Assembly (NCBI RefSeq): GCF_040008265.1
Contig: NZ_CP155620.1
Span: forward strand, 1,789,380-1,853,379
Source: Campylobacter sp. CCS1377
GTDB taxonomy: Bacteria; Campylobacterota; Campylobacteria; Campylobacterales; Campylobacteraceae
Reading direction: 5' to 3'
DNA length: 64,000 bases
Positions within the stretch are counted from its first letter, which is position 1; each line of letters starts with the position of its first letter. Below the pieces are notes generated by a model, which saw only the letters and a list, made by a program, of their open reading frames with translations, ran no database searches and was not told the DNA's origin. The position numbers were made by a program, and so were the translations under genes. This document shows positions 4,812 to 64,000 of the stretch, piece by piece.

Positions 4812-4927
4812 CTTGTGTAAATATTAATTTAATCTTAAAAAATAAAGAAAAATTCAGGCATTATTTTTCGTGTGAAAATTTGAAAAACAAATCATACTTT
4901 TTTTATCTTAATTAAACAAAGTTATGA

Positions 4928-4933: not shown

Positions 4934-5005
4934 CCTAATTTTTAAGCTTAAAGAAAATATTTGAAATATTTTTTGCTTAATTTATAGTTTCTTGAAAGGA
5001 CTTTT

Positions 5006-6385: not shown

Positions 6386-6401
6386 ATTTAAGACTTATAA
6401 A
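6372..6401. terminator. Bidirectional terminator palindrome between convergent transporter genes
   Basis: A perfect 30-base palindrome (15 bases each arm) that contains the stop codons of both the plus-strand symporter and the minus-strand YuiF-type gene. It can form a long AT-rich hairpin in either transcript and most likely ends both. Confidence 0.65.
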
Positions 6402-7702: not shown

Positions 7703-8049
7703 CCTTTAAAATTCAAAAATTTTAATTTTAAAAAAAACTTGATTAAATGGGGCTAAAATAAATAAAATTTGTGTTTTGTATTGATTAAAATTAACATTTG
7801 AACTTACTGCTTGCTATGTATGCAAAATATTAAAGTATATACCTACACTTAGAGGTTTTTAGAAATTTTAGCGGTTTATTCATAAAGCTCCTTTAGTCTC
7901 TTCATTTTTTAAGGATAATACAATCACCCGCACGCACATTGACTTTATAAATTTTGTATATTATTAAAATGCTTTAATAATATATTATTTACTTTTATTT
8001 AATATTTTGATAAAATCACGATTTAAAATTTTTAATAAAAGGTTAATGT
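7703..8049. other. Intergenic region upstream of the autotransporter relic
   Basis: 347 bases of AT-rich DNA without a convincing ORF. It contains a perfect 10-base inverted repeat with a 4-base loop at 7959-7982 (arms TATTATTAAA and TTTAATAATA). The sequence then runs through AT-rich DNA and an AAAAGG site to the ATG at 8050. It likely holds the minus-strand promoter of the YuiF-type gene and the old plus-strand promoter of the autotransporter. Confidence 0.5.
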
Positions 8050-10359: not shown

Positions 10360-10385
10360 ACAAAAAAGCACAAGTTATGAACAGC

Positions 10386-10404
10386 AAGGGAATTTAAATC
10401 CCTT
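10386..10404 (+). terminator. Rho-independent terminator after the autotransporter relic
   Basis: Arms AAGGGA and TCCCTT with an AT loop, followed by a T-run (TATTTTTTAA) at 10408-10414. It is oriented for the plus strand and lies just before the convergent ansA stop codon. Confidence 0.6.
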
Positions 10405-10412
10405 ACTATTTT

Positions 10413-11459
10413 TTAATATTTCAAAAAATATTCTTGAATTTTTTTAGTGTCTTTTGTTTTGGTGAGTGCTAACATTAAAAGAATTCTAGCTTTTTGTGGA
10501 TTTAAGTCCTCAGCTGAGATAAAACCAAGCTTTTGATCTGCTTCACTCACTGCCACACGACCTGCTACTACACGAGAACTCACAGCAACGCTAAGTCCTT
10601 GCTTTAAAAGCTCTTTTAAAACATTTTTTTGATCTTCATGTATGCTTCCTGCGCCACTTCCAGCCACTACTATGCCTTTAGTTCCATTTTCGAACAAAGC
10701 TTTAGCAGCCACGCCATTACCATCATTTGAATAAGTATAAAGAATATCAACTTTTGGTAATTTATCTAATTTACTTACATCAAAAGGAGTGTTTTTAGTA
10801 TGAACTTTGGCTACATTATTATAGAAAAAGACTTTACCATCTACAATATAACCCAAATCCCCAAAATCAGGCGAAGAAAAAGCATCGACATTTAAACTAT
10901 GAGTTTTAACAACACCTCTTGCGCCTAAAATTTTATCATTCATAGCAACCATAACGCCTTTACCCTTTGCATTTTTATCTGCTGCTAGAGCAACTGCATT
11001 ATAAAGATTTTTAGGGCCATCTGCGCTCATAGCAGTTGAAGGACGCATTGCACCCACCAAAACCACAGGTTTATCGCTTTTAACGGTTAAATTTAGAAAA
11101 TACGCAGTCTCTTCCATAGTATCAGTACCGTGAGTGATCACCACTCCATCAACCCCACTTGCAAAAAGCTTGTTAATCTCTTTTGCGAGTTTGAGCTGAA
11201 TTTCATCACGCATATTGGAACTATCGATATTTGCGATTTGTTGTCCGCTAATATCAGCTAGATCTTTAATTTGTGGCACTGCTTTGATTAAAACATCAAC
11301 GCCCACTACTCCTGCTGTATATCCAGTCGTTGCAACCGCACTATCAATCGATCCTGCAATTGTCCCACCTGTCGCTAAAATAGCCACTTTTGGCTTAGCC
11401 TCTGCCATGCTCGCTCCTACAAACAAAAACACCATTATACAAAGCAATAATTTCTTCAT
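10413..11459 (-). CDS. ansA: L-asparaginase, type II, periplasmic
   Basis: Hydrolyses asparagine to aspartate and ammonia, a nutrient source for Campylobacter. At 348 aa it has an N-terminal signal peptide (KK then a hydrophobic run to about AEA at residues 19-21). Both catalytic signatures are present: LATGGTIAG near residue 30 with the nucleophilic Thr, and ITHGTDTMEETAYF near residue 110. The signal peptide and size point to the exported, high-affinity type. The start at 11459 follows AGGAGT. It is the last minus-strand gene after pyrG-recJ-radical SAM, separated by 134 bases, so it may have its own promoter. Confidence 0.93.
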   Translation of the reverse strand: MKKLLLCIMVFLFVGASMAEAKPKVAILATGGTIAGSIDSAVATTGYTAGVVGVDVLIKAVPQIKDLADISGQQIANIDSSNMRDEIQLKLAKEINKLFASGVDGVVITHGTDTMEETAYFLNLTVKSDKPVVLVGAMRPSTAMSADGPKNLYNAVALAADKNAKGKGVMVAMNDKILGARGVVKTHSLNVDAFSSPDFGDLGYIVDGKVFFYNNVAKVHTKNTPFDVSKLDKLPKVDILYTYSNDGNGVAAKALFENGTKGIVVAGSGAGSIHEDQKNVLKELLKQGLSVAVSSRVVAGRVAVSEADQKLGFISAEDLNPQKARILLMLALTKTKDTKKIQEYFLKY

Positions 11460-48177: not shown

Positions 48178-48308
48178 AATTTCAAAAACAGTAAAATAAC
48201 AAAAAAGTAACATTTTTTATTATTTTTATCATTATTCTTTTTTAGAAAGTGGGTATTAAGTTAAATTTATTCATAATGATATTTTAACTTTATTTTAAAG
48301 GAGAAGTG

Positions 48309-48548
48309 ATGAGAAAGATTTTCTTTTTATTATTTTGTATGGTAGGTTTTGTCTTTGCTGCTATTAATATCAATACAGCAACACTTGAAGAGTTAAAAAC
48401 CCTTAAAGGCATTGGAGATGCAAAAGCAAAAGCGATCTTAGAATACCGAAAAGATCAAAATTTCACTAGCATTGAAGATATCAAAAAAATCAATGGTATC
48501 GGAGATAAAATCTTCGAAGGCATTAAAAACGATATCGTTGTAGAATAA
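48309..48548 (+). CDS. ComEA-like helix-hairpin-helix DNA-binding protein, exported
   Basis: A 79-residue protein counted from the ATG at 48309 (AAGGAG six bases before it; the GTG three bases earlier is too close to that site). It has a signal peptide RKIFFLLFCMVGFVFAA and then the HhH pair ININTATLEELKTLKGIGDAKAKAILEYR ... IEDIKKINGIGDKIFEGI. Periplasmic ComEA proteins bind incoming DNA during transformation, linking it in function with the cts operon, although it is not adjacent. Confidence 0.87.
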   Translation: MRKIFFLLFCMVGFVFAAININTATLEELKTLKGIGDAKAKAILEYRKDQNFTSIEDIKKINGIGDKIFEGIKNDIVVE

Positions 48549-48568
48549 AGCAAGACTAAGATCTTGCT
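48549..48568. terminator. Bidirectional terminator between the ComEA-like gene and ribD
   Basis: A seven-pair stem (AGCAAGA and TCTTGCT, six-base loop) overlapping the ComEA-like gene's 3' edge and the ribD stop codon. Confidence 0.5.
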
Positions 48569-49545
48569 AAAGTATAAAATCCGCAAATATCCTCATCAAA
48601 AAAAGTTCTATGCAAAGGATTAAATTCTAAATCCATATTTAAATTTTTATCGCCTCTAAATTTAGAATTATGAAAAATCAAAAACATATCCATTTCATCT
48701 TTTAGTAATTTTAAGAAATTCTCCCCACCTTCATACATAATAAATTTGGCTTCTTTTGGAATTTGAGTAAAAATTTGACGATTTGGCACTTTAAAAAATG
48801 CTAAATTTTGATCAAAGCTTTCTAATTTCTTGCGTGTTAAAATACAAAGATTTGGCGCTTTTCCCTGAGAAAGTCTCGCATCTAAAATGGGTTTATCCTT
48901 TCTTATCGTTTCCCCACCCACCACAAGTAAATCAAGCACAGATCTTATCTTATGCGCATAAGTTCTGCTTGCTTCATTGCTGATAATTTTTCCAAAAGGT
49001 GAACCGTTCATACTCAAAGCAAGTTTAAAGAGTTTAAATTGTCCTTTTTGCCATTTTAAAAAAGGCATTAATAATTTTCTTCCCTCACTCTCTAACACAC
49101 CAACTTCAACTTCCACACCATTTTTTCGTAAAATTTCCACTCCGCCACTAGCGATTTTATTCTCATCTTTTATGCTAATATACACTTTTTTAAAACCAAG
49201 TTCAGTAAAAAGTTTCACACAAGGTGGGGTTTTACCTTGATGCGCACAAGGTTCTAGCGTTACAAAAGCTACTGCTCTGTTTAATAAATTTTGATGATTT
49301 TTTAAAATAAATTCATGCAAATCATTTGCATTAGTGGGTAAAGAAAATTCAGGTTTTAAGCTTTTTAAAGCTACGGCAATGGCGTTTAATTCAGCATGAG
49401 CACACCCAGCCTTCTCGTGGGCTTTTATACTTAGAATTTGTCCGTTTTTATCTAAAATAACACAGCCCACAGCAGGATTTGGATAAGTTAAAAACTGATA
49501 TTTCCACGCTTCATTTAAAGCTAAATTCATATAAAAATTTTTCAT
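48556..49545 (-). CDS. ribD: Bifunctional riboflavin biosynthesis deaminase/reductase RibD
   Basis: Carries out steps two and three of riboflavin synthesis. The 329 aa start with the zinc deaminase domain: HAELNAIAV and LEPCAHQGKTPPC hold the His and two Cys ligands. The reductase domain follows from about residue 165 (KLALSMNGSPFGKIISNEASR, DLLVVGGETIRKDKP). It is slightly shorter than E. coli RibD, with a reduced C-terminal part. It converges with the ComEA-like gene and diverges from the ABC exporter. Confidence 0.92.
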   Translation of the reverse strand: MKNFYMNLALNEAWKYQFLTYPNPAVGCVILDKNGQILSIKAHEKAGCAHAELNAIAVALKSLKPEFSLPTNANDLHEFILKNHQNLLNRAVAFVTLEPCAHQGKTPPCVKLFTELGFKKVYISIKDENKIASGGVEILRKNGVEVEVGVLESEGRKLLMPFLKWQKGQFKLFKLALSMNGSPFGKIISNEASRTYAHKIRSVLDLLVVGGETIRKDKPILDARLSQGKAPNLCILTRKKLESFDQNLAFFKVPNRQIFTQIPKEAKFIMYEGGENFLKLLKDEMDMFLIFHNSKFRGDKNLNMDLEFNPLHRTFFDEDICGFYTLARS

Positions 49546-49623
49546 TTTTTACCTTAAAATCATTGTAAATTTTGATAATAAATATTAAAATATAAATTTT
49601 ATTTTAAATTTTTAGGACTTTTT

Positions 49624-51261
49624 ATGAATTTTATATTAGAACTTTTAAAAAACAATAAACTCAAAATCTTTTTTTTCCTATCATTTAGCATATTTACAAG
49701 CATTTTAGGTGTGCTTGTTTTGGTATTTATCAACGAATACCTTTTAAAAGCTAATTCCAATGAAGGCATATTTATTTTTTATTTCTTAGCCTTGCTGATT
49801 GTATTTTTTCTAAGTTCCATTTTTGTAGAAATTTCTTTAAGTATATTTGGACAAAATTTCATTTTTTCTATGCAAAAACGCGTTGTAAAACAAATTTTAG
49901 ATACAAGTATGTCTAAAATTTCGCAAATTGGTAAAGCAAAGCTTCTAGCATCTTTAGGAAGTGATGTTAGAAATGTTTCTTTTGGGCTTTTAAGATTTCC
50001 TGAATTTATACAATCAAGCATTTTAATCCTTTGTACTTGCGTTTATCTTTGCTATCTTTCGCCTAAAATTTTTGCAATCTGCTTGGTTTGGATCATTTTT
50101 GTTTTTTTAAGCAATAATTTTTTAATGATGAAAGTCTATAAATACTTCAAAAATGCAAGGGAAAATGACGATGCTTTGCAAAATAACTATCAAAATATCC
50201 TTGATGGGCACAGAGAGCTCATTTTAAATCGCTTTAGGGCAAAGCATTATTATGAGTTTGAATTTGAAAAAAATGCGAAAAATAAAAAGCGAAATTCAAC
50301 CATTGCTAACATTTTACATAATTTATCAAACAATTGGACAAATATAGCTTTGCTAGCACTTGTAGGGCTTGAATTTTATTTTTCTTTGCATTTTTCTTGG
50401 ACGAGCATTGAAAATGCGACAACCATAGCTTTATCAATACTTTTTTTACGAACACCTTTGGTGGCGATGATAGGCTCTTTTCCTACTTTAATCCTAGCAA
50501 AAATAGCCCTAGATAAAATCGCAAAACTTGAATTAGAAAATTTCGAACAAAATTTTACACTCCATAGCAACAAAGAACACTGGCAAAGCATTCGTTTTGA
50601 TAAAGTTGCTTTTTCATATAATGAAAAATTCTCACTCAAACCCACAAGTTTAGAAATTCACAAAGGCGAACTCATTTTTTTAATCGGAAAAAATGGCAGT
50701 GGAAAATCCACTTTTTCCATGCTTTTAGCGGGGCTTATAAGTCCAAAAGAAGGCGAAATTTATTTAGATGATCAAAAAATTGATTCTTCAAATTTAGTCA
50801 AATATCAAAGTTTGATTACTGCGATTTTTAGTGATTTTCATCTCTTTACTCAAACCTTAGAAAATGATAATTTTGCAAGCGAAGAAGAGATAAAATATTG
50901 GCTTGAATTTTTAGAGCTTTATGAAAAAACAGATATCAAAGATCACAAAATCACCACTACAAAACTTTCCACAGGACAAAGAAAACGCTTGGCTATGTTT
51001 ATAGCTTTGTTAGAAAAACGAGATATATTGATTTTAGATGAATGGGCAGCTGATCAAGATCCGGTTTTTAGAAGATTTTTTTATAAAAAGCTTTTGCCTT
51101 TGTTAAAAGAGCAAGGTAAAACGATCTTTGCTATCACACATGATGATGCGTATTTTGATAGTGCGGATAGAATTTTCTTGGCACAAAATGGCGAGATTAG
51201 CGAGTTAAAAGGTGAAAATATCAAGGAGAAAGCTAGGAATTTGATTGCTCGGTTTGAGTGA
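49624..51261 (+). CDS. ABC exporter, fused membrane and ATPase domains (cyclic peptide/YojI-PvdE type)
   Basis: A 545-residue half-transporter. About six membrane spans lie in residues 1-290. The ATPase has Walker A IGKNGSGKSTFSMLLAG (near residue 358), signature TKLSTGQRKRLAM, Walker B ILILDEWAADQDP and a switch His in FAITHDD. The LSTGQ signature with DEWAADQDP is the YojI/PvdE-type pattern, exporters of siderophore-related or peptide substrates. It lies near cgb, as Cj1587 lies near cgb in C. jejuni. The cargo is unknown. Confidence 0.87.
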   Translation: MNFILELLKNNKLKIFFFLSFSIFTSILGVLVLVFINEYLLKANSNEGIFIFYFLALLIVFFLSSIFVEISLSIFGQNFIFSMQKRVVKQILDTSMSKISQIGKAKLLASLGSDVRNVSFGLLRFPEFIQSSILILCTCVYLCYLSPKIFAICLVWIIFVFLSNNFLMMKVYKYFKNARENDDALQNNYQNILDGHRELILNRFRAKHYYEFEFEKNAKNKKRNSTIANILHNLSNNWTNIALLALVGLEFYFSLHFSWTSIENATTIALSILFLRTPLVAMIGSFPTLILAKIALDKIAKLELENFEQNFTLHSNKEHWQSIRFDKVAFSYNEKFSLKPTSLEIHKGELIFLIGKNGSGKSTFSMLLAGLISPKEGEIYLDDQKIDSSNLVKYQSLITAIFSDFHLFTQTLENDNFASEEEIKYWLEFLELYEKTDIKDHKITTTKLSTGQRKRLAMFIALLEKRDILILDEWAADQDPVFRRFFYKKLLPLLKEQGKTIFAITHDDAYFDSADRIFLAQNGEISELKGENIKEKARNLIARFE

Positions 51262-51512
51262 TATTTCTTTCATATTCTACAAATCCTTTTTCTTTGTATT
51301 CAGCGATGATTTCATCGGCACTTAAACCATATACATTTCTTTTAACTAACATAATAATATCCAACTCATTAAGATAAATACTTTCCAATAGCGTGAGTTC
51401 CTATATTTGATTTAATATTCTCGTATTGCTCTTTAGTTAAATCATCTTTATATTTTTTAAGTATCACAAGGCTTTCTTCTAAACTATACACTTTGTGATA
51501 TTGTTTTTGCAT
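51233..51512 (-). pseudogene. Small frameshifted gene of unknown function
   Basis: Fills most of the gap between the ABC exporter and cgb. A strong AAGGAG site precedes ATG at 51512. The first frame gives 47 residues (MQKQYHKVYSLEESLVILKK...) and stops at 51369. One base shift near 51400 connects to a second frame, LTLLESIYLNELDIIMLVKR..., continuous through an internal Met at 51352 to a stop at 51233. The joined product would be about 90 residues, acidic and helical, without a recognised family. Its 3' end overlaps the exporter gene. It could be an old antitoxin-like or regulatory protein; that is speculation. Confidence 0.5.
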
Positions 51513-51593
51513 TTTTACTCCTTTTTTAATTAAAATATTATCTATTTTAAAGCAAAAAATGATAGAGTTTTTTAGTGGAAAATTCCACTAAAA

Positions 51594-52019
51594 TCATTTT
51601 TTCTCATAAAGATTTTTTTCTATATCTATATAAAATTTAGCGATTTTTTCATAAGCTATCTCCCAAGCTTTAAGCACTTCTTCGCTTGGATTTAAAAGAT
51701 TTTTAATTGCTTTTAAAAGGCAAATTCCAACTATAGGATAATGCTCTTCTTTTACGCCTAAATTTACATGAGTGATGGCAATTTTATCTACAAAATTTCT
51801 CATATTTTCTAAATTTTCTACATTTTTAGCCGCCATTAAAATCGCCATTGCTAAAGCCTTTGGTTGTTCTCCTGACGCTTGCTTTTCCATATTAAACATA
51901 GGTTTTACTTCGGGATAATCAGAAAATAAAATTTTATAAAATTCCTTAGTTAAATCTTCTCCGCTTTTTTGTAAAATCGGCACACAATCTTTGATGATTT
52001 TTATTTGTTCTTGAGTCAT
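51594..52019 (-). CDS. cgb: Single-domain haemoglobin Cgb
   Basis: A 141-residue globin that detoxifies nitric oxide in Campylobacter. Visible are the B-helix TyrPhe region (LTKEFYKILFSDYPEVKPMFN, Tyr at B10), the Gln in the E helix region (KQASGEQPKALAM) and the proximal F8 His in AITHVNLGVKEEHYPIVG. This is the Vgb/flavohaemoglobin-like class without a reductase domain. The promoter has a Crp/Fnr-type palindrome at -41.5, in line with NssR control. Confidence 0.93.
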   Translation of the reverse strand: MTQEQIKIIKDCVPILQKSGEDLTKEFYKILFSDYPEVKPMFNMEKQASGEQPKALAMAILMAAKNVENLENMRNFVDKIAITHVNLGVKEEHYPIVGICLLKAIKNLLNPSEEVLKAWEIAYEKIAKFYIDIEKNLYEKK

Positions 52020-52051
52020 ATTTTTCCTTTATTTTTGAAATTAGAATTTGC

Positions 52052-52057
52052 ATTTTA
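52052..52057 (-). promoter_or_regulatory. Candidate -10 box of cgb
   Basis: TAAAAT on the minus strand 33 bases before the cgb start. It puts the start of transcription near 52045, exactly 41.5 bases from the centre of the Crp/Fnr-type site. Confidence 0.45.
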
Positions 52058-52079
52058 GAAAAAAATAGAATTAAATTCA

Positions 52080-52093
52080 TTGACTTTAATCAA
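52080..52093. promoter_or_regulatory. Crp/Fnr-superfamily operator upstream of cgb (probable NssR site)
   Basis: TTGAC-TTTA-ATCAA, an imperfect dyad of the Crp/Fnr type. NssR, the NO-responsive Crp/Fnr-family activator of cgb in C. jejuni, binds TTAAC-N4-GTTAA-like sites; this one is closer to the Fnr form. Class II activator geometry is inferred from the spacing. Confidence 0.5.
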
Positions 52094-52254
52094 TAAAATA
52101 TCTTTTATGATATTATGTGTAAAAAATACTCACTATATATGATATGTTACTTTTTGTCCTATAAATTTTTAAATTATGAAAAATATTACATAAAAATTAT
52201 ATTATAAAGTCACTTTTTTGTTATATTTTTAACATCAAACTATAAGGAGAAATT

Positions 52255-52620
52255 ATGGAATTGAATCAAAATCAAAAACAATCTTTATCAAGATTTAGAA
52301 ATTTTGTTTCTTTTAGAAATAAAATTTCCTTGTTGCTATCTTTGGCTGTATTAATTTGTTATTACGCTTTTATCTTTAGTGTAGGTGCTTTTCCTGATAT
52401 TTTAGGCTATCGTTTAGGAAGCAGTTCTGTTACTTTAGGTATAGTGTGCGGTATATTTATTATCGCATTGTGTATAATAGTTACAGGATTTTATACTTTC
52501 ATTGCAAATCAATATTTAGACAAAAATCAAGAAGAGCTTTTAAAAGATTTAGAAAATAACAATCTTACAAAACATCTTCAAAATGGAGAATTAAGCTATA
52601 CTCAAAAGGAGACTCAATGA
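52255..52620 (+). CDS. DUF485 membrane protein paired with acetate symporter
   Basis: A 121-residue protein with two membrane segments (about residues 25-48 and 62-88) and the DUF485 pattern [20 protein letters not shown] followed by [29 protein letters not shown]. Such proteins (YjcH type) precede actP in many bacteria. AAGGAGAAATT precedes the ATG. It overlaps the symporter gene by 4 bases, so they are co-translated. Confidence 0.87.
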
Positions 52621-54266
52621 AAAAAATAGTAATTATTTTAGGCACTTTATTATCTTTTTGTCAAGCAGCATCTATTGATTTAAATGGGGTAAAAAAAGCC
52701 GAGCTTAATCCTATAGCCATTTCAATGTTTGTAGCTTTTGTATTATTTACACTTTTTATTACTTATTATTCTAACAAAAAAAGTCAATCTGCAAGCGGTT
52801 TTTACACAGCTGGAGGAAATATCACAGGCGCACAAAATGGCATAGCTATTGCGGGTGATTATATGAGTGCGGCAAGTTTTTTAGGTATCATTGCTCTTAT
52901 TTTTACCAATGGTTTTGATGGTTTAATTTATTCTATAGGTTTTTTAGTAGGCTGGCCTATCGTTTTATTTTTAATTGCTGAAAAGCTTAGAAATCTTGGA
53001 AAATTCACATTTGCTGATATTACCGCTTATAGACTTGATGCCAAACCTATAAGAATTTTATCTGCCGTCTCAGCTTTAAGTGTTATAGTATTTTATTTGA
53101 TCGCTCAAATGGTAGGGGCGGGACAACTTATACAAGTTCTTTTTGGACTTCCTTATACTTTTGCTGTTGTTTTGGTGGGAATTTTAATCATACTTTATGT
53201 TGTTTTTGGCGGTATGCATGCAACAACTTGGGTACAAATCATCAAAGCCATTTTACTTTTAAGCGGTGCAACTTTTATGGCTATAATGGTGCTTTACTTA
53301 ACTAAATTTGATTTAAAATACTATTTTGAGCTTGCCATATCACATCATGCAAAAGGTGCAAGCATTATGAAACCAGGGACTTTTTTACCTGATACAGTTT
53401 CGGCTGTATCTTTGGGACTTGCTTTAATGTTTGGCACAGCAGGTTTGCCTCATATTTTAATGAGATTTTTTACAGTAAAAAATGCTAAAGAAGCTAGAAA
53501 ATCAGCATTTTATGCAACAACTTTGATAGGATATTTTTATATTTTAACCTTTATTATAGGTTTTGGTGCTATTGCGCTTTTGTTAGGAAATCCGCAATTT
53601 ACTAACCCAGATGGAAGCTTTAATGGCATAACCAATATGGTTGCTGTATTACTAGCTGAAGTTTTAGGTGGTAGTGTATTTTTAGGCTTTATTTCAGCTG
53701 TGGCTTTTGCAACGATTTTAGCTGTTGTTGCAGGACTTACCATTTCAGGAGCTGGAGCGATAAGTCATGATTTATTTGTCAATGTTTGCAAAAATGGAGA
53801 ATGCGATCCTAAACAAGAACTTAGAGTAACTAAAATAGCTACCATTTGCATAGGAATTTTAGCCATACTTGTAGGGATTATTTTTGAAAATCAAAATGTT
53901 GCCTTTACAGTAGGACTTGCTTTTGCTATTGCTGCGAGCGTGAATTTTCCTATACTTTTGCTTTGTCTTTATTGGAAAAATCTTACAACTAAAGGAGCTT
54001 TTTGGGGTGGGCTTATTGGGCTTATTGTTGTTGTAGTGCTGGTGCTTTTAAGTCCTAGTATTTGGATAAAAAGTTTTGGCTTTAGCGAGGCAATTTTTCC
54101 TTATGATCATCCAGCTTTATTTTCTATGCCTTTAACCTTTATTTTGATTTATATCATTTCTAAATTGGATAAATCTAAGAGGGCTAAGATAGATAAAGAA
54201 GGCTTTGAAGCACAAAATTTCAGAGCACAAAGTGGGATTGGCATAAGTGAAGCTGTGGCGCATTAA
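52617..54266 (+). CDS. actP: ActP-like cation/acetate symporter
   Basis: A 549-residue sodium:solute symporter with an N-terminal signal-like segment ([18 protein letters not shown]) and about 13 further spans. Family signatures are [63 protein letters not shown] and [22 protein letters not shown]. It would import acetate, and possibly other short carboxylates, for use via acetyl-CoA. A strong terminator follows. Confidence 0.88.
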
Positions 54267-54268
54267 AC

Positions 54269-54296
54269 AAATAGCAAGATTTTCATCTTGCTATTT
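54269..54296 (+). terminator. Terminator after actP
   Basis: A perfect 12-pair inverted repeat (AAATAGCAAGAT and ATCTTGCTATTT) with a TTTC loop, three bases after the stop codon. Confidence 0.75.
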
Positions 54297-54418
54297 ATGC
54301 TTAATTCATATTTAAAAACAAAAATATAAATCACCAAATAAACTCTATATCTATAAAATAATTTTTGTTCTGTGCTATTAAATTCTTATTAAAATACTTG
54401 CTAGCAATAATTTATGAA

Positions 54419-54495
54419 TGGTGTCAAGGGGGAGACTTGAACTCCCGACCTCCGGCTTATGAGACCAGCGCTCTAACCAGCTGAGCTACCCTGAC
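54419..54495 (-). tRNA. tRNA-Met (CAU anticodon)
   Basis: A complete 77-nt cloverleaf on the minus strand. The acceptor GTCAGGG pairs with CCTTGAC, the anticodon loop CTCATAA has anticodon CAT, the T arm is GGGAGTTCAAGTCTCCC, and CCA is encoded. CAT could also mark tRNA-Ile2 (lysidine); the fully paired first acceptor base argues against initiator tRNA. Confidence 0.9.
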
Positions 54496-54610
54496 AAAAT
54501 TCTACATATACATAAAATGTAGAAATTTTAAAGGAGTAAAATCGAAATTATACTATTTTTTACTAAAATTTTTCTGATTTTAAAAAATTTTATTTAAAGC
54601 TTTTGTTGGA

Positions 54611-54616
54611 TATAAT
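54611..54616 (+). promoter_or_regulatory. -10 box of the tRNA-Ser-Ala-Val genes
   Basis: A perfect TATAAT (GGATATAATGCAG) 15 bases upstream of the mature tRNA-Ser 5' end. Another weaker CATAAT at 54781-54786 lies before tRNA-Ala. Confidence 0.55.
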
Positions 54617-54630
54617 GCAGATTTTATTTT

Positions 54631-54718
54631 AGACAGGTGTCCGAGCGGTTGAAGGAGCACGCCTGGAACGCGTGTAAAGTGCAAGCTTTCGAGGGTTCGA
54701 ATCCCTTCCTGTCTGCCA
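54631..54718 (+). tRNA. tRNA-Ser (GGA)
   Basis: An 88-nt class II tRNA with the long variable arm of Ser tRNAs. The acceptor AGACAGG pairs with CCTGTCT, the anticodon loop CTGGAAC has anticodon GGA, and the discriminator G is followed by encoded CCA. Confidence 0.95.
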
Positions 54719-54807
54719 TAGATCAAAAATTTTATTATTAAAGTTAATAGTTCTTTAAATTTTCTAAAAGAAAATTTAGGCATAATTACACTTTATTTAA
54801 ATTTAGT

Positions 54808-54883
54808 GGGGCATTAGCTCAGCTGGGAGAGCACAACGCTGGCAGCGTTGGGGTCAGCGGTTCGAACCCGCTATGCTCCACCA
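54808..54883 (+). tRNA. tRNA-Ala (GGC)
   Basis: A 76-nt cloverleaf with acceptor GGGGCAT paired to ATGCTCC and anticodon loop CTGGCAG (GGC). The T arm is GCGGTTCGAACCCGC, and CCA is encoded. Confidence 0.95.
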
Positions 54884-54894
54884 TTATCAACTTT

Positions 54895-54970
54895 GGTTCC
54901 GTAGCTCAGCTGGTAGAGCACCACCTTGACATGGTGGTGGTCGTTGGTTCAAGTCCAATCGGAGCCACCA
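54895..54970 (+). tRNA. tRNA-Val (GAC)
   Basis: A 76-nt cloverleaf with acceptor GGTTCCG paired to CGGAGCC and anticodon loop TTGACAT (GAC). CCA is encoded. It is the last tRNA before the type I restriction locus. Confidence 0.95.
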
Positions 54971-55046
54971 TTTTTTATTTCTTTCAATTTCTCTTATTCA
55001 AAGCACAGATTTAAAACTATTTATAAGATTTTTATTGATGATTTTA

Positions 55047-55052
55047 TATAAT
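55047..55052 (+). promoter_or_regulatory. Candidate -10 box of the hsd operon
   Basis: TATAAT in a strongly AT-rich stretch (TTATATAATATATTATAA), 32 bases before the hsdM start codon. Confidence 0.5.
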
Positions 55053-55083
55053 ATATTATAAATAAAAATAAAAGGAAAACATC

Positions 55084-56999
55084 ATGAATCAAAGTCAATT
55101 CCAACCCATTATCAACTTCATATGGAGTGTGGCAGATGATTTACTTCGTGATGTTTATGTAAAAGGCAAATACCGCGATATTATTTTACCTATGACGATT
55201 ATAAGAAGAGTAGATGCAGTTTTAGAACCTACAAAAGATAAAGTTCTCGAAACTTACGACACTTATAAAGATAAATTTGAAAATTTAGATTTTATACTAG
55301 GTGGAAAACAAGGAAATAACCTAGGCTTTTCTAATTATTCTAAATTTAGCCTACAAACCCTTCTAAATGATCCAAAAAATATCAGAATAAATTTTGAAAA
55401 TTATTTGGATTGTTTTAGTGAAAATATCAAAGATATCATCTCAAAATTCAAATTCAAAAACCAACTTGACACCCTAGAAGAATCAAACATACTTTTTGGA
55501 GTGATAGAGAGATTTTGCTCACCTAGGGTAAATTTTGGCATAGAAGATATCTTAGATGAAAAAGGAAATGTTATCCACAAAGGCTTAAGCAACCTTGGAA
55601 TGGGGTATGTTTTTGAAGAACTCATTCGTAAATTTAACGAAGAAAACAACGAAGAAGCCGGAGAGCATTTTACTCCAAGAGAGATCATAGAGCTTATGAC
55701 CCACCTTGTATTTTACCCGTAAAAGAACAGATCAAAAAAGGAACATGGCTTATTTATGATAATGCTTGCGGAAGCGGTGGAATGCTCACAGAGTCAAAAG
55801 AATTCATCACAGATCCCAATGGCCTTATACAATCAAAAGCAAACATCTATCTTTACGGACAAGAAATCAACCCAGAAACCTACGCCATATGCAAAGCAGA
55901 TATGCTGATAAAAGGCGAAGATCCAGATCATATAAAATTTGGCTCCACTTTAAGCAATGATCAGCAAGATAAAAAATTTGATTTCATGCTTAGCAATCCA
56001 CCTTATGGCAAGTCTTGGGAAAATGATCAAAAAATTCTAGGCGTAGAAAAGAAAGGCTCAAATTCAACTTGCAATGACCCAAGATTTAGCGTAGGTATCA
56101 CAAGCAAAAGCGATGGACAAATGATGTTTTTGCTCAATATGCTTAGCAAGATGAAATTTGATACTCCTTTAGGCTCTCGCATCGCAAGCGTACATAATGG
56201 CTCATCACTTTTTAACTCAGATAGTGGCATGGTAGCCATAAGAAAACACATCATAGAAAATGACTATCTTGAAGCCATAGTCGCACTTCCTACAAATATG
56301 TTTTACAATACAGGAATTCCTACTTTCATATGGATCATCACCAACAAAAAGCCAGAACATAAAAAAGGCAAAGTTCAGCTTATAAACGCTACAAGCGATA
56401 GGTATTTTTCCAAGATGAAAAAGTCTTTAGGCTCTAAACAAAATGAAATGACAAAAGAACATATAGAAAAAATCACTAAGTTATTTTTAGAAAATGTTTC
56501 TAACAAAGACTGCAAAATTTTTGACAATGAAGACTTTGGCTATACCAAAATCACTATAGAAAAACCAAAAAGCATAGAAGTTTTAAAAGATGATGAAAAA
56601 TTTGCAAAACTCAAAGACAAAGACAAAGACAAAATCTTAGAAAAATTACAAGAGTTAGAGCAAAACCCGCAAGATTTTGAAGATAGAAATGAATTCATAA
56701 GCTTTTTAGGTGTAAAACTCAAAAAAAGCGAAGAAAACCTCATCATCGATAGTGACAAAACCAACAACACCGAAAAAATCCCACTCAAAACAAACATACA
56801 AAGCTACTACGACACAGAAGTAAAACCCTATGTAGCAAACTCTTGGATAGCTTGGGAAAGTGCAAGTGTGGGTTATGAAATTTTGTTTAACAAATACTTT
56901 TATACTTACACACCACCAAGAAAACTAGAAGAGATAAATAGCGAATTAGAAAAGCTAGAAAAAGAAGTACAAGATCTTTTAAGAGAGATTATGCAATGA
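55084..56999 (+). pseudogene. hsdM: HsdM, type I DNA methyltransferase subunit, frameshifted
   Basis: One N6-adenine methylase gene in two frames. The first 212 codons (55084-55722) hold the N-terminal helical HsdM domain, ending GEHFTPREIIELMTHLVF. The frame then changes at a four-T run (55711-55714): five T would give HLVFLPVKEQIKKGTW and run on into NACGSGGML (SAM motif I) and NPPYG (catalytic motif IV) in the second frame, open to 56999. With one added base the product is about 638 aa, a normal HsdM with an acidic C-terminal half. As written, the methylase core is not translated in frame. This may be a mutation, a phase-variable state or a sequencing error. Confidence 0.9.
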
Positions 57000-58192
57000 G
57001 AGTTTTCAAAGATAGTGGCATAGAATGGCTTGGGGAGATCCCAGAGCATTGGGAAGTGGTGAAAATAAAGCATATTTTTAATATTGGAAGAGGCCGTGTA
57101 ATTTCTCAAGAAGAATTGGATGAAAATGGAAATTTTCCAGTTTATTCTTCTCAAACAACTAACAATGGAATATTAGGATATATAAAAACTTATGATTTTG
57201 ATTGCGAACAAATAACTTGGACAACTGATGGTGTTAATGCAGGCACAATTTTTCTTAGAAATGGAAAATATAATTGCACAAATGTATGTGGAATATTAAA
57301 ACCACGAAATAATGAAAATATGTCTTTTTTGACTTATGCTCTTCAAAATGTTGCTCCTTGTTATAAGCGTCCTGACACTAATGGAGCAAAAATTATGAAT
57401 AATGAAATGGCCAATATACAAATAGTTTATCCACCACTAAAAGAGCAAGAACAAATCGCAAATTTTTTAGATGAAAAATGCGAGCAGATAGCAAATTTCA
57501 TAGAGAAAAAAGAAAAACTTATCAGTCTTTTAAAAGAACAAAAGCAAGTTTTGATAAATGAAACCATCACAAAAGGACTTGATAAAAATGTAAATTTCAA
57601 AGATAGTGGCATAGAATGGCTTGGCGAAATTCCACAGCATTGGAATATTTTAAAACTTAAGCATATTGCTTCTTTGCGAAATCAAAAAAGTAATAATATT
57701 GATTTTAGAATTGGACTTGAAAACATAGAAAGCAAAACGGGTAAATTTATTCCATCAAGCGAGGTAGTGTTTGAAGAAGATGGAATAGGGTTTAAAAAGG
57801 GAGATATTTTATTTGGAAAGTTGCGACCATATCTTGCAAAGGTATTTTTAACCGATAGGGATGGAATTTGTGTTAGTGAATTTTTAGTTTTAAAGATAAA
57901 ATCAGAAAGTAATAAATTTATAAAATTTTTAATGCTTTCATCTTTATTTATAGATATTGTAGATAGTTCAACTTATGGAACAAAAATGCCACGAGCAAAT
58001 TGGGAATTTATAGGAAATCTTAAAATTCCACTTCCGCCACTAAAAGAGCAAGAGCAAATCGCACAATTTTTAGATTCTGAAATTTCTAAAATAGATCAAA
58101 TCATAGAAAAAACCAAAAAGCAAATAGAACTTATCAAAGAATACAAAACCACACTTATAAACCAAGCTGTATGTGGTAGGATTGATTTATAA
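56996..58192 (+). CDS. hsdS: HsdS, type I specificity subunit
   Basis: A 398-residue protein with two target-recognition domains. Each opens with DSGIEWLGEIP(E/Q)HW (residues 6 and 202) and each is followed by a conserved helical spacer opening PPLKEQEQIA(N/Q)FLD. The two openings are encoded by identical 30-base direct repeats (57004-57033 and 57595-57624), and the spacers by near-identical repeats. The start overlaps hsdM by 4 bases. It determines the bipartite DNA target; the recognised bases cannot be read from sequence. Confidence 0.93.
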   Translation: MRVFKDSGIEWLGEIPEHWEVVKIKHIFNIGRGRVISQEELDENGNFPVYSSQTTNNGILGYIKTYDFDCEQITWTTDGVNAGTIFLRNGKYNCTNVCGILKPRNNENMSFLTYALQNVAPCYKRPDTNGAKIMNNEMANIQIVYPPLKEQEQIANFLDEKCEQIANFIEKKEKLISLLKEQKQVLINETITKGLDKNVNFKDSGIEWLGEIPQHWNILKLKHIASLRNQKSNNIDFRIGLENIESKTGKFIPSSEVVFEEDGIGFKKGDILFGKLRPYLAKVFLTDRDGICVSEFLVLKIKSESNKFIKFLMLSSLFIDIVDSSTYGTKMPRANWEFIGNLKIPLPPLKEQEQIAQFLDSEISKIDQIIEKTKKQIELIKEYKTTLINQAVCGRIDL

Positions 58193-58203
58193 AAGGATAG
58201 AAG

Positions 58204-60408
58204 ATGATTACTAAAATTTCTATGAAAAATGTAGCGAGTTATAAAGATGAGACAATGCTAGAAACAGATAAACGCATTAATTTGATTTATGGTTTAAATG
58301 GAACAGGAAAAACGCAAATTTCTAAATTTTTAGCAAATCAAGAAGATGAAAACTTTAAAGATTGTAATATAGAAGGTTTAAGCAATGAAGAAATTTTGGT
58401 TTATAATCAAGATTTTATTGAAAAAAACTTTTATAATACAGACAAACAGCAGGGAATTTTTACACTCTCTGAAGAAAATATAACTATAAAACAAGAAATT
58501 GAAAAATTACAAGAAGAATTAATAGGATTAAAGTCTAACCAAGATGAAAATGAAAGAAAATTAAAAGAAAATCAAGAAGATATAATAAAAATAGAAAATG
58601 GTTTTAAAGATGATATTTGGAAAATCAAGCAAAATCACAGTGATAATTTTAAAGATTTTTTTGAAGGAAAAATGGGAAGTAAAGAAAGTTTTTTTAAATT
58701 TATAAATCCAAAAATAGAAGAAGTTTTACCTCTTGATACAATAAATCAAAATATAAATTTAGAAGAATTAAAGAAACAATATAGCATTCTTACTGACACA
58801 ACACAAATTAAATTAGAAAATATCAATGAAATTTCAAATATAGAATTTAAAAATATAGAAAATAACTCAATATTTAATGCAATAATTGTAGGTAACCAAA
58901 ATAGTGTTATTGCAGATTTAATTAATAAGCTAGGAAATGAAGATTGGGTAAAAGATGGTTTTGATAAGTATGTTTTGCAGGATTCTCAAACTTGTCCTTT
59001 TTGTCAAAAAGATACAATCACTCAAGAATTTAAAAGCTATTTAGAGGATTATTTTGATAAAACATATGAAGAAAGAATAAAAGAATTGGAAAAATTAAAT
59101 GATGAATATCAAAATTTATTTTCAAATATACCAAGTATAGAAACTTTTTATAGAAGAGATATTTTAGATAATGAAGATTTGGAATTTGAAAAATTATATT
59201 TTCAAGTAAAATTAAAACTTGAAAAAAATATTAGAAAAATTCAAGAAAAGATTAAAGAACCTAGCAAAAAAATAGAATTAGAAAAAACCGAAGAACTATT
59301 TCAAAATTTAAATAATTATCTTAAACAAATACAGCAAAAAATCATAGAATTTAATAGCAAGTTAGAAAATCCAGAAGACGAACGAGAAAAACTAGAAAAA
59401 CAATTTTGGGAATTTGCGATTTTTGAAAAAAAAGAGATTATAGAAAAATACAACAAAAATAAAAAGGAACAGGAAATAAACAAAGGAGTTTTAGATAAAG
59501 AAAATCAAACTATCAAAGATAGCATACAACATATAGAAAATACCATAAAAGAAAAACAAAAAGAGGTAATTAATATCCAAGAAGCAGTTGATAGGATAAA
59601 CAATTATTTGAAAGATTTAGGAATTTTAAGTTTTTGTATCAAAATCCAAGATGATGAAAAGCAAGAATATATTATCATAAGAGAGGGTGAAGATAAACCT
59701 AGTTTTAAAACCTTAAGTGAAGGTGAAAAAACTTTAATTTCATTTTTGTATTTTTTACAACTTTGTCAAGGCAAAAAAGAAAAAGATGAAGCAATTTTAG
59801 ATAAAATTATCGTGATTGATGATCCTATTTCTAGCCTTTCTTTTAATTATGTTTATAATATAGCTCAACTCATTAAAGAAATATTTTTACGCAACAAAGA
59901 TAGCAACTATAAACAAATTTTTGTTTTAACACACCATTTGTATTTTTTTAAGGAATTAATAGGATTTAGAGAAGGATATAAAAAAGATATTTATACTTTT
60001 AGAATTAGAAGAAATGAAAGTTATATATCTCATATTGATACAATGAAAGAAGATGAAATTTTAAATGACTATCAGGCTTATTGGCAAATTTTGAAAGATT
60101 ATAAAGAAGGTAAAATTCATGTTATATTAATTCCTAATACTATGAGAAATATTTTAGAATATTTTCTAGGTTTTATTCAAAAAGACACAATTGATATAAT
60201 AAAAAAAATAGAGAATGAAGATAAAGAAAAGAGATTTGAACCTTTTTGTCTGTATATCAATAGAGAATCTCATTCTTTTATGGGTAATATGTCAGATGCA
60301 AAAGAAATTGATATCGATATGTTTTTTGAAGCATTTAAAAAAGTATTTGAATATTTGGGACATCTCGAACATTATAACATAATGATGACTAAAGGAAATC
60401 AACAATGA
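58204..60408 (+). CDS. rloC: RloC-like anticodon nuclease (zinc-hook ABC ATPase)
   Basis: A 734-residue protein between hsdS and hsdR. An SMC/Rad50-like ATPase is split over both ends: Walker A YGLNGTGKT (30-37), signature LSEGEKT (504-510), Walker B IIVIDDPISS (535-544) and THH (576-578). Long coiled coils are broken by a zinc-hook CPFC at 264-267. After the ATPase, a C-terminal region has Arg648-x3-Glu652 and His690 (MRNILEYF and RESHSF), the spacing of the PrrC/RloC catalytic triad that cuts tRNA anticodon loops. The gene fits RloC, a phage-exclusion nuclease. It starts 11 bases after hsdS and overlaps hsdR by 4. A general AAA_13 ATPase is the alternative. Confidence 0.82.
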   Translation: MITKISMKNVASYKDETMLETDKRINLIYGLNGTGKTQISKFLANQEDENFKDCNIEGLSNEEILVYNQDFIEKNFYNTDKQQGIFTLSEENITIKQEIEKLQEELIGLKSNQDENERKLKENQEDIIKIENGFKDDIWKIKQNHSDNFKDFFEGKMGSKESFFKFINPKIEEVLPLDTINQNINLEELKKQYSILTDTTQIKLENINEISNIEFKNIENNSIFNAIIVGNQNSVIADLINKLGNEDWVKDGFDKYVLQDSQTCPFCQKDTITQEFKSYLEDYFDKTYEERIKELEKLNDEYQNLFSNIPSIETFYRRDILDNEDLEFEKLYFQVKLKLEKNIRKIQEKIKEPSKKIELEKTEELFQNLNNYLKQIQQKIIEFNSKLENPEDEREKLEKQFWEFAIFEKKEIIEKYNKNKKEQEINKGVLDKENQTIKDSIQHIENTIKEKQKEVINIQEAVDRINNYLKDLGILSFCIKIQDDEKQEYIIIREGEDKPSFKTLSEGEKTLISFLYFLQLCQGKKEKDEAILDKIIVIDDPISSLSFNYVYNIAQLIKEIFLRNKDSNYKQIFVLTHHLYFFKELIGFREGYKKDIYTFRIRRNESYISHIDTMKEDEILNDYQAYWQILKDYKEGKIHVILIPNTMRNILEYFLGFIQKDTIDIIKKIENEDKEKRFEPFCLYINRESHSFMGNMSDAKEIDIDMFFEAFKKVFEYLGHLEHYNIMMTKGNQQ

Positions 60409-63341
60409 CTAACTACCAAGAAAAAGATTTAGAAAATTTCATAGAGTCTTACTTGTTAGAAAACCATGCCTATATCAAAAGAACAAATGAAAACTTTGAT
60501 AAAAATTTATGTATCGATACAGAATTTTTTGAGAATTTCTTACAAGCTACACAAAGTGTAGCATTAGAAGAGCTTAAAAAACGTTGTGGGCAAAACTATA
60601 AAAAAGAACTTTTTAATCGTATTTTCTCACAAATCAAAACCAAAGGCATAGTCAAAGTCTTACAAAGCTATGTGGAGATCAAAGGCATTAAAATTTACCT
60701 AGCCTTTTCAAAACCAAACACTAGTGCAAACGAAGAAAGCGTGAAAAAATACGAGCAAAACAACCTTTCTATCATACGCCAGCTTTACTACAGCACACAA
60801 AATAAAAACTCCCTTGATATGGTTATCTTTTTAAACGGCTTACCCCTTATCACCATAGAGCTTAAAAACCATTTTACAGGACAAAATGTCTTTCACGCTA
60901 TAGAGCAATACAAAAAAGACAGAAACCCAAAAGAAGCTATATTTAGCCTTACTATAGTGCATTTTGCACTAGATAATGATCTTTGCTATATGAGTACAAA
61001 ATTAGATCAAGATGCGACTACATTTTTGCCTTTTAATCTTGGTTTAAACAATGGTAGTGGCAAAATAGGCTTAGCAAATGGAGCAGGCAACCCACCAAGT
61101 GATGGTATAAAAACAGCTTATTTATGGGAGAAAATCTTTAAAAAAGATACTTTGCTAAATTTATTTTTTAATTTTGTGCAAGTTGTGAAAAAAGAAAACG
61201 AAGAAATCATCATCTTTCCTAGATACCATCAATTTGATGTAGTAGAAAAACTACTCGCCCATGCAAAAGAAAACGGCACAGGGCAACGCTACTTAATCCA
61301 GCATAGTGCAGGAAGTGGCAAGAGTAATTCTATATCTTGGCTTGCACATAATCTCGTAAGCTTACATAGACTTGAAAAAAACATCTTTGATTCTATCATC
61401 GTAGTAACCGATAGAAAAGTGCTTGATAGGCAAATAAGAGAAAATGTAAAATCTTTTTCACAGAAGACAAAAGACCTAGTCGAAGCCATCACTCATGGAA
61501 GCAAACAGCTTAAAAATGCTTTAGAAGAAGGTAAGAAAATCATCATCACAACCATACAAAAATTTCCTTTCATTTTAGATGAGATCAAAACCTTAAAAAG
61601 CAAAACTTTTGCTATCATCATCGATGAAGCACACTCTAGCCAAAGCGGAAGCAATGCTCAAAAAATGACTGAAGTCATAAGAAGTAAAAGCTATGATGAA
61701 AGTCAAAATTTAGATGATGAAATTTTAGAAATTATAAAAAATAAAAAACTCCAAAGCAATGCTTCTTATTTTGCATTTACCGCTACACCTAAGCCAAAAA
61801 CCTTAGAAATGTTTGGTATGCCTTGTGATGTTAATGGAGAGCAAATGTTTATCCCATTTCATCTTTACTCTATGAAACAAGCCATAGAAGAAGGTTTTAT
61901 ACTTGATGTATTAAAAGGCTATACAATGTATAAAAGTTACTATAAACTCATATCTTGCACAAATGACAATCCAAAATACGATAAAAAAAGAGCAAACGCA
62001 AAACTAAAAGCCTATGTCCAAAACAATATCAAAACAATCGAACAAAAATCACAAATCATGTGTGAGCATTTTTTCCAAAATAGTTTTAAAAAGATAAATG
62101 GCAAAGCAAAAGCTATGGTTGTAACAAGCTCAAGAGAAAATGCTGTGAAGTATTATCTTGTTTTTAGAGAGTATTTAAGAAAAAATTATCCACATTTTAA
62201 AGCTATAGTGGCTTTTTCAGGTGAAGTAAATTTAGAAGGTGAAATTTATAGCGAAAGTGGCTTGAATGGTTTTTCAGAAAATGCTTTAAAAGATGAGTTT
62301 AAAAAATATGAGTATCGTTTTTTAATCGTTGCGGAAAAATACCAAACTGGCTTTGATGAGCCATTATTACATACGATGTATGTAGATAAAGCATTAAGCG
62401 GAGTAAGTGCAGTGCAAACTCTATCAAGACTAAACCGAACTTGCAAAAACAAAGAAAATACTTTCGTGCTAGACTTTGCAAACACCCATGAAGATATAGC
62501 AAAATCTTTTAGTGTATTTTATGAGCAAACTTACTTAAGTGAAGCCACAGATGATAATAGAATTTTTGATTTAAAAGCAAATCTAAATGAATATGAAATT
62601 TACACCCAAGAAGAAATAAATGATTTTACAAATGCCATTTTAAAAAATGAAAAAGAAAATGTAATTCATTCAAAATTAGACACAATGTTAACTAGATTTG
62701 AACAAAAAAGCGATAATGAAAAATTAGATTTTTATAATAAAGCAAGGACTTATCTTAAAGAGTATTCTTTTTTAGCTCAAATATTACCCTATGAAGATAT
62801 AGAACTTGAAAAGCTTTATATACTTCTTAAAAAACTTACTAGTAAAATTATCTTACCTAAACCAGAGGACTTAGCTAAAGGAATTTTAGATAATGTGGAT
62901 TTTGATAGTTATCGCTTACAACTTGATAAAACACAAGATATCATTTTACAAGGAAATGGAGAGCTAAAACCTTCTTTTGCAGATGGTTCGAGCAAAAGTG
63001 CCGAAGCTGAATTAGAAGAGCTTTCAAACATCATCAAAGATTTTAACAACAAATACGCAAATATAGACTTTAACGAAAGCGACAAAATAGCTAAAATCTT
63101 ATATGATATAAAAGATGATATAGCAAAAAATGAAGAAATACGCGAAACTTTTAACAAATCAGGTATGCAAAATTCGCGCATTAGATTTGATGAAATTTTA
63201 GAAGACAAAATTCAAGATCTTTTAGATTTAAATTTGGAACTTTTTAAACAATTTACTCAAAACAATGATTTCAAAGACAAAATAGCAAATGTAATGTTTA
63301 ATATGATTTATAGTGATATAAAAAATAATTCTTTTATCTAA
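60405..63341 (+). CDS. hsdR: HsdR, type I restriction endonuclease/translocase
   Basis: A 978-residue restriction subunit. The N-terminal PD-(D/E)xK nuclease has DMVIFLNGLPLITIELKN (Glu-x-Lys near residue 155). The SF2 helicase motor has motif I HSAGSGKSNSISW, motif II IIDEAHSSQSG, motif III FAFTATPKP and motif VI VQTLSRLNRTCK. A C-terminal helical region contacts HsdM. Its ATG overlaps the nuclease gene. It is intact, but a working restriction complex also needs HsdM, which is frameshifted here. Confidence 0.93.
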   Translation: MTNYQEKDLENFIESYLLENHAYIKRTNENFDKNLCIDTEFFENFLQATQSVALEELKKRCGQNYKKELFNRIFSQIKTKGIVKVLQSYVEIKGIKIYLAFSKPNTSANEESVKKYEQNNLSIIRQLYYSTQNKNSLDMVIFLNGLPLITIELKNHFTGQNVFHAIEQYKKDRNPKEAIFSLTIVHFALDNDLCYMSTKLDQDATTFLPFNLGLNNGSGKIGLANGAGNPPSDGIKTAYLWEKIFKKDTLLNLFFNFVQVVKKENEEIIIFPRYHQFDVVEKLLAHAKENGTGQRYLIQHSAGSGKSNSISWLAHNLVSLHRLEKNIFDSIIVVTDRKVLDRQIRENVKSFSQKTKDLVEAITHGSKQLKNALEEGKKIIITTIQKFPFILDEIKTLKSKTFAIIIDEAHSSQSGSNAQKMTEVIRSKSYDESQNLDDEILEIIKNKKLQSNASYFAFTATPKPKTLEMFGMPCDVNGEQMFIPFHLYSMKQAIEEGFILDVLKGYTMYKSYYKLISCTNDNPKYDKKRANAKLKAYVQNNIKTIEQKSQIMCEHFFQNSFKKINGKAKAMVVTSSRENAVKYYLVFREYLRKNYPHFKAIVAFSGEVNLEGEIYSESGLNGFSENALKDEFKKYEYRFLIVAEKYQTGFDEPLLHTMYVDKALSGVSAVQTLSRLNRTCKNKENTFVLDFANTHEDIAKSFSVFYEQTYLSEATDDNRIFDLKANLNEYEIYTQEEINDFTNAILKNEKENVIHSKLDTMLTRFEQKSDNEKLDFYNKARTYLKEYSFLAQILPYEDIELEKLYILLKKLTSKIILPKPEDLAKGILDNVDFDSYRLQLDKTQDIILQGNGELKPSFADGSSKSAEAELEELSNIIKDFNNKYANIDFNESDKIAKILYDIKDDIAKNEEIRETFNKSGMQNSRIRFDEILEDKIQDLLDLNLELFKQFTQNNDFKDKIANVMFNMIYSDIKNNSFI

Positions 63342-63389
63342 AAAATTAATTTTGAAATATTATTTAAACTCAATCAGACCATTTTTTAC

Positions 63390-63866
63390 TTAACTTCTCA
63401 TTCTTACATTTGCTGCATGAGTTAAAGCTATAGCTATGGCGTCTGTAATATCTAAAGGCTTAATATCTTTACTAAGCCCTAAAAGTCTTTTTACCATAAA
63501 AGCTACTTGTTCTTTTGTTGCTTTTGCTTTTCCTGTAACGGCTTTTTTTACTTGCAAGGGAGTATATTCTGTAAAATCTCCATGAATTTGTAAGATTTTC
63601 AAACTCAAAGCTCCACGAAATTGTGCGAGTTTTAAAACGGTTTTTGGATTATAAGCAAAAAAGATATCTTCAATCGCTACCTCATCAAAAGAATGATTTT
63701 TAAAAATCAAGTCTAACCCCTCACAAAGTTCTGTGATTTGATACTGCAAAGTGCTAGGCTTTATCTTTATAAGTCCTGCTTCGATTAAAGTATTTTTACC
63801 TTTATTAGTTTCTATGATAGCATAACCGCAATTTCTTGAACCTGGATCTATACCTAAAATTTTCAA
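63390..63866 (-). CDS. ruvC: Holliday junction resolvase RuvC
   Basis: A 158-residue endonuclease that resolves four-way junctions. The catalytic acidic residues are at the expected places: Asp7 in [15 protein letters not shown], Glu in [25 protein letters not shown] and the C-terminal Asp pair in [15 protein letters not shown]. In C. jejuni, ruvC is the last gene before dnaA, and DnaA-box-like sequences follow here as well. Confidence 0.95.
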
Positions 63867-63875
63867 AATACACCC

Positions 63876-63917
63876 TTTTTCACAACTGTGAAATTCTTAA
63901 AATATAGCTGTGAATTT
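63876..63917. promoter_or_regulatory. Cluster of three DnaA-box-like sequences, possible origin region
   Basis: Three 9-mers with the TTCACA core: TTTTTCACA at 63876-63884 (plus), AATTTCACA at 63887-63895 (minus) and AAATTCACA at 63909-63917 (minus). The epsilonproteobacterial DnaA box is close to TTATTCACA. The first two form an inverted pair. They lie between ruvC and a plus-strand start codon, where C. jejuni has the ruvC-dnaA junction. Confidence 0.5.
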
Positions 63918-63985
63918 TAACCATTTTTTATAAAAATTAAGATAAAATCTAAATTTTAGTTTAAAATTATGGGAATAAGATAAAA

Positions 63986-64000
63986 ATGGATATTAATGAA
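63986..64000 (+). CDS. Start of a plus-strand gene cut by the window edge, possibly dnaA
   Basis: An ATG at 63986 after a GGGAATAAG-type site, followed by four codons (MDINE) and the end of the window. Position after ruvC and the DnaA-box cluster suggests dnaA, but five residues cannot prove it. Confidence 0.3.

Follow-up and report, generated by a model that had tools for sequence, protein, structure and literature searches.

RloC and PrrC are the described systems closest to a gene that we analysed in Campylobacter sp. CCS1377. This gene, rloC (58204..60408), encodes a predicted anticodon nuclease and lies in a type I restriction-modification (R-M) locus within a stretch of 64,000 nucleotides (hereafter the window) at the end of a genome that consists of one contig of 1.85 Mb. 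RloC has been described from Geobacillus kaustophilus and Acinetobacter baylyi, and such genes were found as inserts in Campylobacter jejuni type I loci, where they were named rloC, rloE or rloG (Miller et al. 2005, as given in PMC2610378). RloC proteins are 658–897 amino acids (aa) long, have a split ABC head with a CXXC motif in a coiled-coil insert, and carry the motif R-x3-E-x36-52-H, often with a Ser before the His (PMC2610378). Replacement of any triad residue of G. kaustophilus RloC led to loss of activity, and zinc restrains the enzyme (PMC2610378). RloC of A. baylyi was switched on by an inducer of DNA breaks, the hsdR, hsdM and hsdS mutants being like the wild type (PMC3874168), and a 2025 review also has it responding to double-strand breaks (PMC12707154). 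PrrC, known from the E. coli EcoprrI locus, has an ABC ATPase and a C-terminal triad and sits between hsdS and hsdR. PrrC is reported to be silenced by the type I enzyme to which it is linked; for RloC of A. baylyi no such silencing was seen.

The 734-aa product of rloC is, we think, probably a Rad50-like ABC ATPase that is split by a coiled coil bearing a CPFC hook and carries a PrrC-like C-terminal domain; it is predicted to cut the anticodon loop of tRNA, the likely trigger being the detection of broken DNA by its own ATPase. The features on which this reading is built are the following.

58291..58314, + strand: Walker A, GLNGTGKT (residues 30-37)
58993..59004, + strand: CPFC zinc-hook motif (residues 264-267)
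59713..59733, + strand: ABC signature LSEGEKT (residues 504-510)
59806..59841, + strand: Walker B and D-loop, IIVIDDPISSLS (residues 535-546)
60061..60405, + strand: C-terminal helical domain, predicted anticodon nuclease (about residues 620-734; from hhalign to PrrC and structural models)
60145..60159, + strand: R648-N-I-L-E652 (from sequence, alignments and PrrC profile match)
60268..60273, + strand: S689-H690 (from sequence, alignments and PrrC profile match)

An earlier note on this DNA had listed Walker A and B, LSEGEKT, CPFC at 264-267 and the Arg, Glu and His residues after the ATPase, and all of them are present in the open reading frame (ORF). The triad spacing is R648-x3-E652-x37-H690. 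The note had also given 42 residues from Arg to His here against about 36 in PrrC, which agrees with the published distance from Arg320 to His356 of PrrC, namely 36 (PMC2610378). Pfam AAA_13 (PF13166) spans residues 10-716 (8.6e-125); as this is a broad family, the parts of the protein were tested separately. The top PADLOC match was PDC-S06 (2.5e-241), a label for candidate defence genes for which the literature searched describes no mechanism.

We scored a capped set of 7997 candidate homologues, at least 333 of which were found at E <= 0.001, and aligned the best 120 of these with the window protein (121 rows). Among the 114 rows that reach the triad positions (7 gaps at R648), R648 and H690 are invariant and E652 is Glu in 113 and Asp in one. 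Both hook cysteines, C264 and C267, are conserved in all 120 rows that reach the hook (1 gap). A second alignment of 29 rows (the window protein, 17 copies from the loci described below and 11 of the 120 homologues) extends to a copy of only 28% identity (L041), and the picture is the same: R648 in 29/29, E652 in 28/29, S689-H690 in 29/29 and the hook cysteines in 29/29. The triad is thus near-invariant in both sets rather than freely varying. Not every charged residue of this region is fixed; R687, just before ESH, is variable (R, D, E or K).

For a direct comparison with PrrC we built a profile from eight PrrC proteins of seven genomes, excluding the split matches of an eighth genome (G083). 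A profile of the window family (67 rows) matched it over columns 483-715 with an hhalign probability of 98.3 (E 2e-14). R648, E652 and S689-H690 aligned to residues shared by all eight PrrC proteins, numbered R297, E301 and S335-H336 in the first PrrC row. The predicted triad assignment holds in this direct test. Given that homologues conserve all three positions and that these align with invariant residues of PrrC, the R648/E652/H690 layout is, on these alignments, not a matter of chance.

The predicted structure has a Rad50/SMC-like head, with long helices flanking the CPFC motif on both sides. The segment bearing H690 had a pLDDT (predicted local distance difference test score) below 50 in both structure models. 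Searches of PDB gave three matches at E 0.12-0.25 with the protein sequence, none of them convincing, and no match at E <= 0.01 with the profile; Foldseek with the isolated C-terminal model found no match at E <= 0.001 (best 3.1). A search for short homologues of the C-terminal domain returned four proteins, and the domain alignment is accordingly shallow (8 rows).

Compared with the described systems, the window protein shares with RloC the split ABC head, the CXXC motif in a coiled-coil insert, the triad motif with Ser before His and the insertion in a type I locus, and its length is within the published range. None of the features tested excludes it from RloC, and its C-terminal domain is homologous to that of PrrC, as is that of RloC. 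PrrC proteins, both from E. coli and from Campylobacterales (L042-L048 and L050), are only 341-416 aa long and have an uninterrupted ATPase without coiled coil or zinc hook. Rad50/SbcC have the ABC head, the coiled coil and the CXXC hook in common with the window protein but are without a C-terminal nuclease region (PMC2610378), which is predicted here. Membership of the predicted protein in the RloC family, complete with its triad, is therefore well supported by motifs, conservation and the PrrC profile alignment together, as the earlier note had proposed. The family is a known one, named from this genus and this type of locus, and the window protein is a well-formed but ordinary example of it.

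The gene is inside a type I locus, again as noted earlier, with the specificity gene upstream and the restriction gene downstream.

55084..55722, + strand: hsdM part 1, 212 aa; HsdM_N and start of N6_Mtase, ended by a frameshift
55782..56999, + strand: hsdM part 2, 405 aa; N6_Mtase from profile position 61 on
56996..58192, + strand: hsdS specificity subunit, 398 aa; PF01420, 2.9e-42
58204..60408, + strand: rloC, predicted anticodon nuclease, 734 aa, ATG start; PF13166
60405..63341, + strand: hsdR, 978 aa; HSDR_N 2.1e-13, SWI2_SNF2 3.9e-26

The order is hsdM-hsdS-rloC-hsdR on one strand, hsdM being in two ORFs. As the start of hsdS overlaps the stop of hsdM, only 11 bases separate the hsdS stop from the rloC start, and the start of hsdR overlaps the stop of rloC, the four genes look like one compact operon. 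Genes for tRNA-Ser, tRNA-Ala and tRNA-Val (54631-54970, + strand) lie immediately upstream of it.

If the protein acts as published for RloC, its triad would cut the tRNA and remove the wobble nucleotide. Until double-strand breaks appear, for example when a phage degrades DNA, RloC would be kept off by its zinc hook and its DNA-dependent ATPase; the stop of translation would then abort the infection. RloC would be expressed together with HsdR from this operon and would back up restriction as a second line. We accordingly describe the rloC product as a predicted anti-phage or DNA-damage response enzyme, the switch of which is likely internal, that is, its own ATPase rather than the restriction enzyme.

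The earlier note had gone further in one respect and proposed that loss of restriction frees the tRNA nuclease. This is the mechanism of PrrC and is not supported here: it fits poorly with the unchanged behaviour of the A. baylyi hsd mutants (PMC3874168) and, in this strain, with the state of the locus, in which hsdM is broken and rloC is intact and under purifying selection. The hsdM of a same-species relative (L040) is one open frame, whereas that of the window is frameshifted into two ORFs. The stretch NACGSGG, which we take to be methyltransferase motif I, falls between the stop of the first part and the ATG of the second, and therefore the hsdM pieces, if made separately, would be without it. 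As to a possible rescue in trans, HsdM_N was found once in the genome, as was HSDR_N, though other matches to N6_Mtase and Methylase_S lie elsewhere in it. Both activities of a type I enzyme depend on HsdM. Since the only HsdM_N gene found is split, the strain would have no type I complex to silence RloC, and silencing by an intact complex is unlikely here.

We then asked how isolated this break is by counting indels not divisible by three against the same-species relative in two aligned blocks. Of the six in the block 48212-57055, one is the hsdM break and two others, separated by three bases, also lie within hsdM; the remaining three are at 51385 and 51568, each between listed ORFs, and at 54799, between tRNA genes. 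The block 58037-64000 has five, all of them at 58064-58087, where the end of hsdS has diverged; rloC and hsdR have none. The hsdM break thus stands alone in well-aligned coding sequence. Within hsdM we saw no classic phase-variation tract, the longest run of G or C being 4 and that of any base 7. The ratio of nonsynonymous to synonymous substitution rates (dN/dS) against the same-species copy was 0.285 for rloC overall and 0.274 in its nuclease domain; rloC is open and, judged by these ratios, under purifying selection.

Three points weigh against an RloC that works on its own beside a dead methylase gene. The hsdM break is possibly an assembly error. The second half of hsdM still has a dN/dS of 0.089, because of which the break may be recent. 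Moreover, the PrrC orthologues considered in an earlier study were active except where the R-M system beside them was cryptic (PMC3874168), and a nuclease beside a broken hsdM could for that reason be inactive.

The relation of RloC to restriction was raised in 2008, when the two were found linked, to type I or III systems, in 8 of 72 genomes (PMC2610378), a minority to which the window copy would belong; in A. baylyi, in which rloC and hsd are not linked, RloC was later found not to depend on R-M (PMC3874168). We looked for this linkage across the order. RloC relatives were found at E <= 1e-30 in 17/398 Campylobacterales genomes, the window's own included, and at E <= 1e-10 in 2/49 genomes of the genus. 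We read 18 loci, namely the window and 17 others, with L041 as a weaker second copy in genome G029 and with two fragments of G291 left out. An R-M gene (methylase, specificity or nuclease) adjoins the RloC relative in 12 of the 18, which is a raw count without a background rate and includes two loci of one species (the window and L040).

The neighbours are of type I in six loci (the window, L040, L041, L039, L026 and L035, the last with a C-terminal part of HsdR), MmeI-type in L027 and L028 and type ISP in L025. Type II genes flank the relative in L030 (D12 methylase, rloC, AlwI nuclease; 1224-6218) and in L033 (N6_N4 methylase, rloC, TdeIII nuclease; 6253-10868), and L038 has an N6_N4 methylase with no nuclease seen. 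No R-M gene was present among the one or two neighbours scanned in L029, L031, L032, L034, L036 and L037. R-M linkage is therefore common in this sample and is not limited to type I. Linkage as such was already known; for the spread of R-M types beside RloC in Campylobacterales we found no description in the literature searched, a search that mostly did not extend to subscription papers.

Since the R-M types vary, the shared signal might be DNA ends rather than any one R-M protein. A tentative extension, which we hold to be possible though not the likelier outcome, is that RloC of Campylobacterales is a general, portable companion of restriction and not a rare damage sensor independent of R-M. 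Placed beside or between the modification and restriction genes of systems that have nothing else in common (type I, MmeI-type, type ISP and ordinary type II), it would read DNA ends from any restriction enzyme or phage, not the state of one partner, and stop translation when cutting does not clear the invader.

Some further genes were seen at these loci. A DUF2130 (PF09903) gene directly adjoins the RloC relative in L031, L036 and L038. The same-species relative has a second RloC-like gene, 28% identical and 776 aa long, in another type I locus (L041 4988-12826), in the order hsdR part (EcoEI_R_C), rloC-like gene, hsdS, one ORF and hsdM. In L026 (6017-6904) an Abi_2 (PF07751) gene lies between hsdM and hsdS of a type I locus that also has an RloC relative.

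A rather doubtful alternative is that RloC guards restriction as PrrC does, HsdMSR holding it silent until phage inhibition or loss of restriction frees it. The PADLOC profile for PrrC detected PrrC proper in 8/298 Campylobacterales genomes. The order hsdS-prrC-hsdR is seen in three of the eight loci (L042, L043 and L045), these being the ones in which the scan covered both sides and showed hsdS on one and hsdR on the other. The neighbours of L044 and L047 lie outside the scan, L046 has hsdR on the scanned side of prrC, and L048 and L050 have hsdM beside it. The window rloC, between hsdS and hsdR, occupies the same slot as PrrC in these related genomes, and this slot, the start-stop overlap of rloC and hsdR and the frequency of R-M neighbours all speak for a guard. 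However, hsd mutations in A. baylyi neither release nor block RloC (PMC3874168), and some RloC relatives sit with type II genes with no HsdMSR seen beside them. Intact rloC genes also accompany broken partners, not only in the window with its split hsdM but also in Helicobacter burdigaliensis (L003/L039), where hsdR is in two frames (L039 7305-10249) and rloC and hsdM are in one frame each. As a separate observation, a RhuM-family gene lies directly upstream of prrC and hsdM in L050 (1-3602).

The two genomes of the same-species pair each have a complete rloC in the same slot, beside an hsdM in one frame in one genome and a split hsdM in the other. The question of RloC and restriction thereby becomes testable in a linked locus, and the broken hsdM beside an intact rloC is a useful natural test case.

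It is improbable, in our judgement, that rloC is an idle passenger, brought in with an exchanged hsdS block and silent or decaying alongside the broken hsdM. The exchange itself has some basis. In 200-base bins, DNA identity to the same-species relative is 99-100% in hsdM part 1, 92-97% in the rest of hsdM, 39-75% in hsdS, 90-97% in rloC and mostly 94-100% in hsdR, and the hsdS proteins are 41% identical; measured in this way, the locus is a mosaic. Copies of the protein labelled C. coli (94% identical; P0001 and P0003) are closer than the same-species copy (89%), which suggests that rloC has been exchanged between species. Its closest relative in genome contigs is that of Campylobacter sp. 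US33a (L002; protein 89% identical), and C. jejuni proteins in the database are 77-78% identical (P0038 and P0039). Short copies in C. jejuni, C. coli and C. upsaliensis, some of them labelled partial and perhaps cut by contig ends, would agree with decay, as would the inactive PrrC orthologues linked to cryptic R-M systems. On the other hand, the rloC frame of the window is open, every motif is intact and its dN/dS is that given above.

A very improbable reading is that the C-terminal domain is some other nuclease, or an RNase with a different specificity, coupled to a Rad50-like sensor of DNA ends and aimed at a target other than tRNA. The tRNA substrate is a prediction, the protein also resembles Lamassu LmuB (PADLOC 1.2e-11; Foldseek 9hqx_B, E 1.5e-05) and some HEPN RNases cut mRNA (PMC3710099), but the triad aligns with PrrC and fits the published RloC motif.

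Finally, two observations concern the shortened relatives. A mass truncation of the nuclease, considered from a 559-aa C. jejuni protein (P0063, in a cluster of 1728 sequences), was rejected, the record being labelled partial; its last residues resemble what is presumably sequencing-adapter read-through. The window rloC has a run of eight A at 59426 (codons 408-411), and the short relatives P0070, P0074 and P0075 lose the frame directly after the same FEKK/FEKR codons, so that this run may be a recurrent slippage point.
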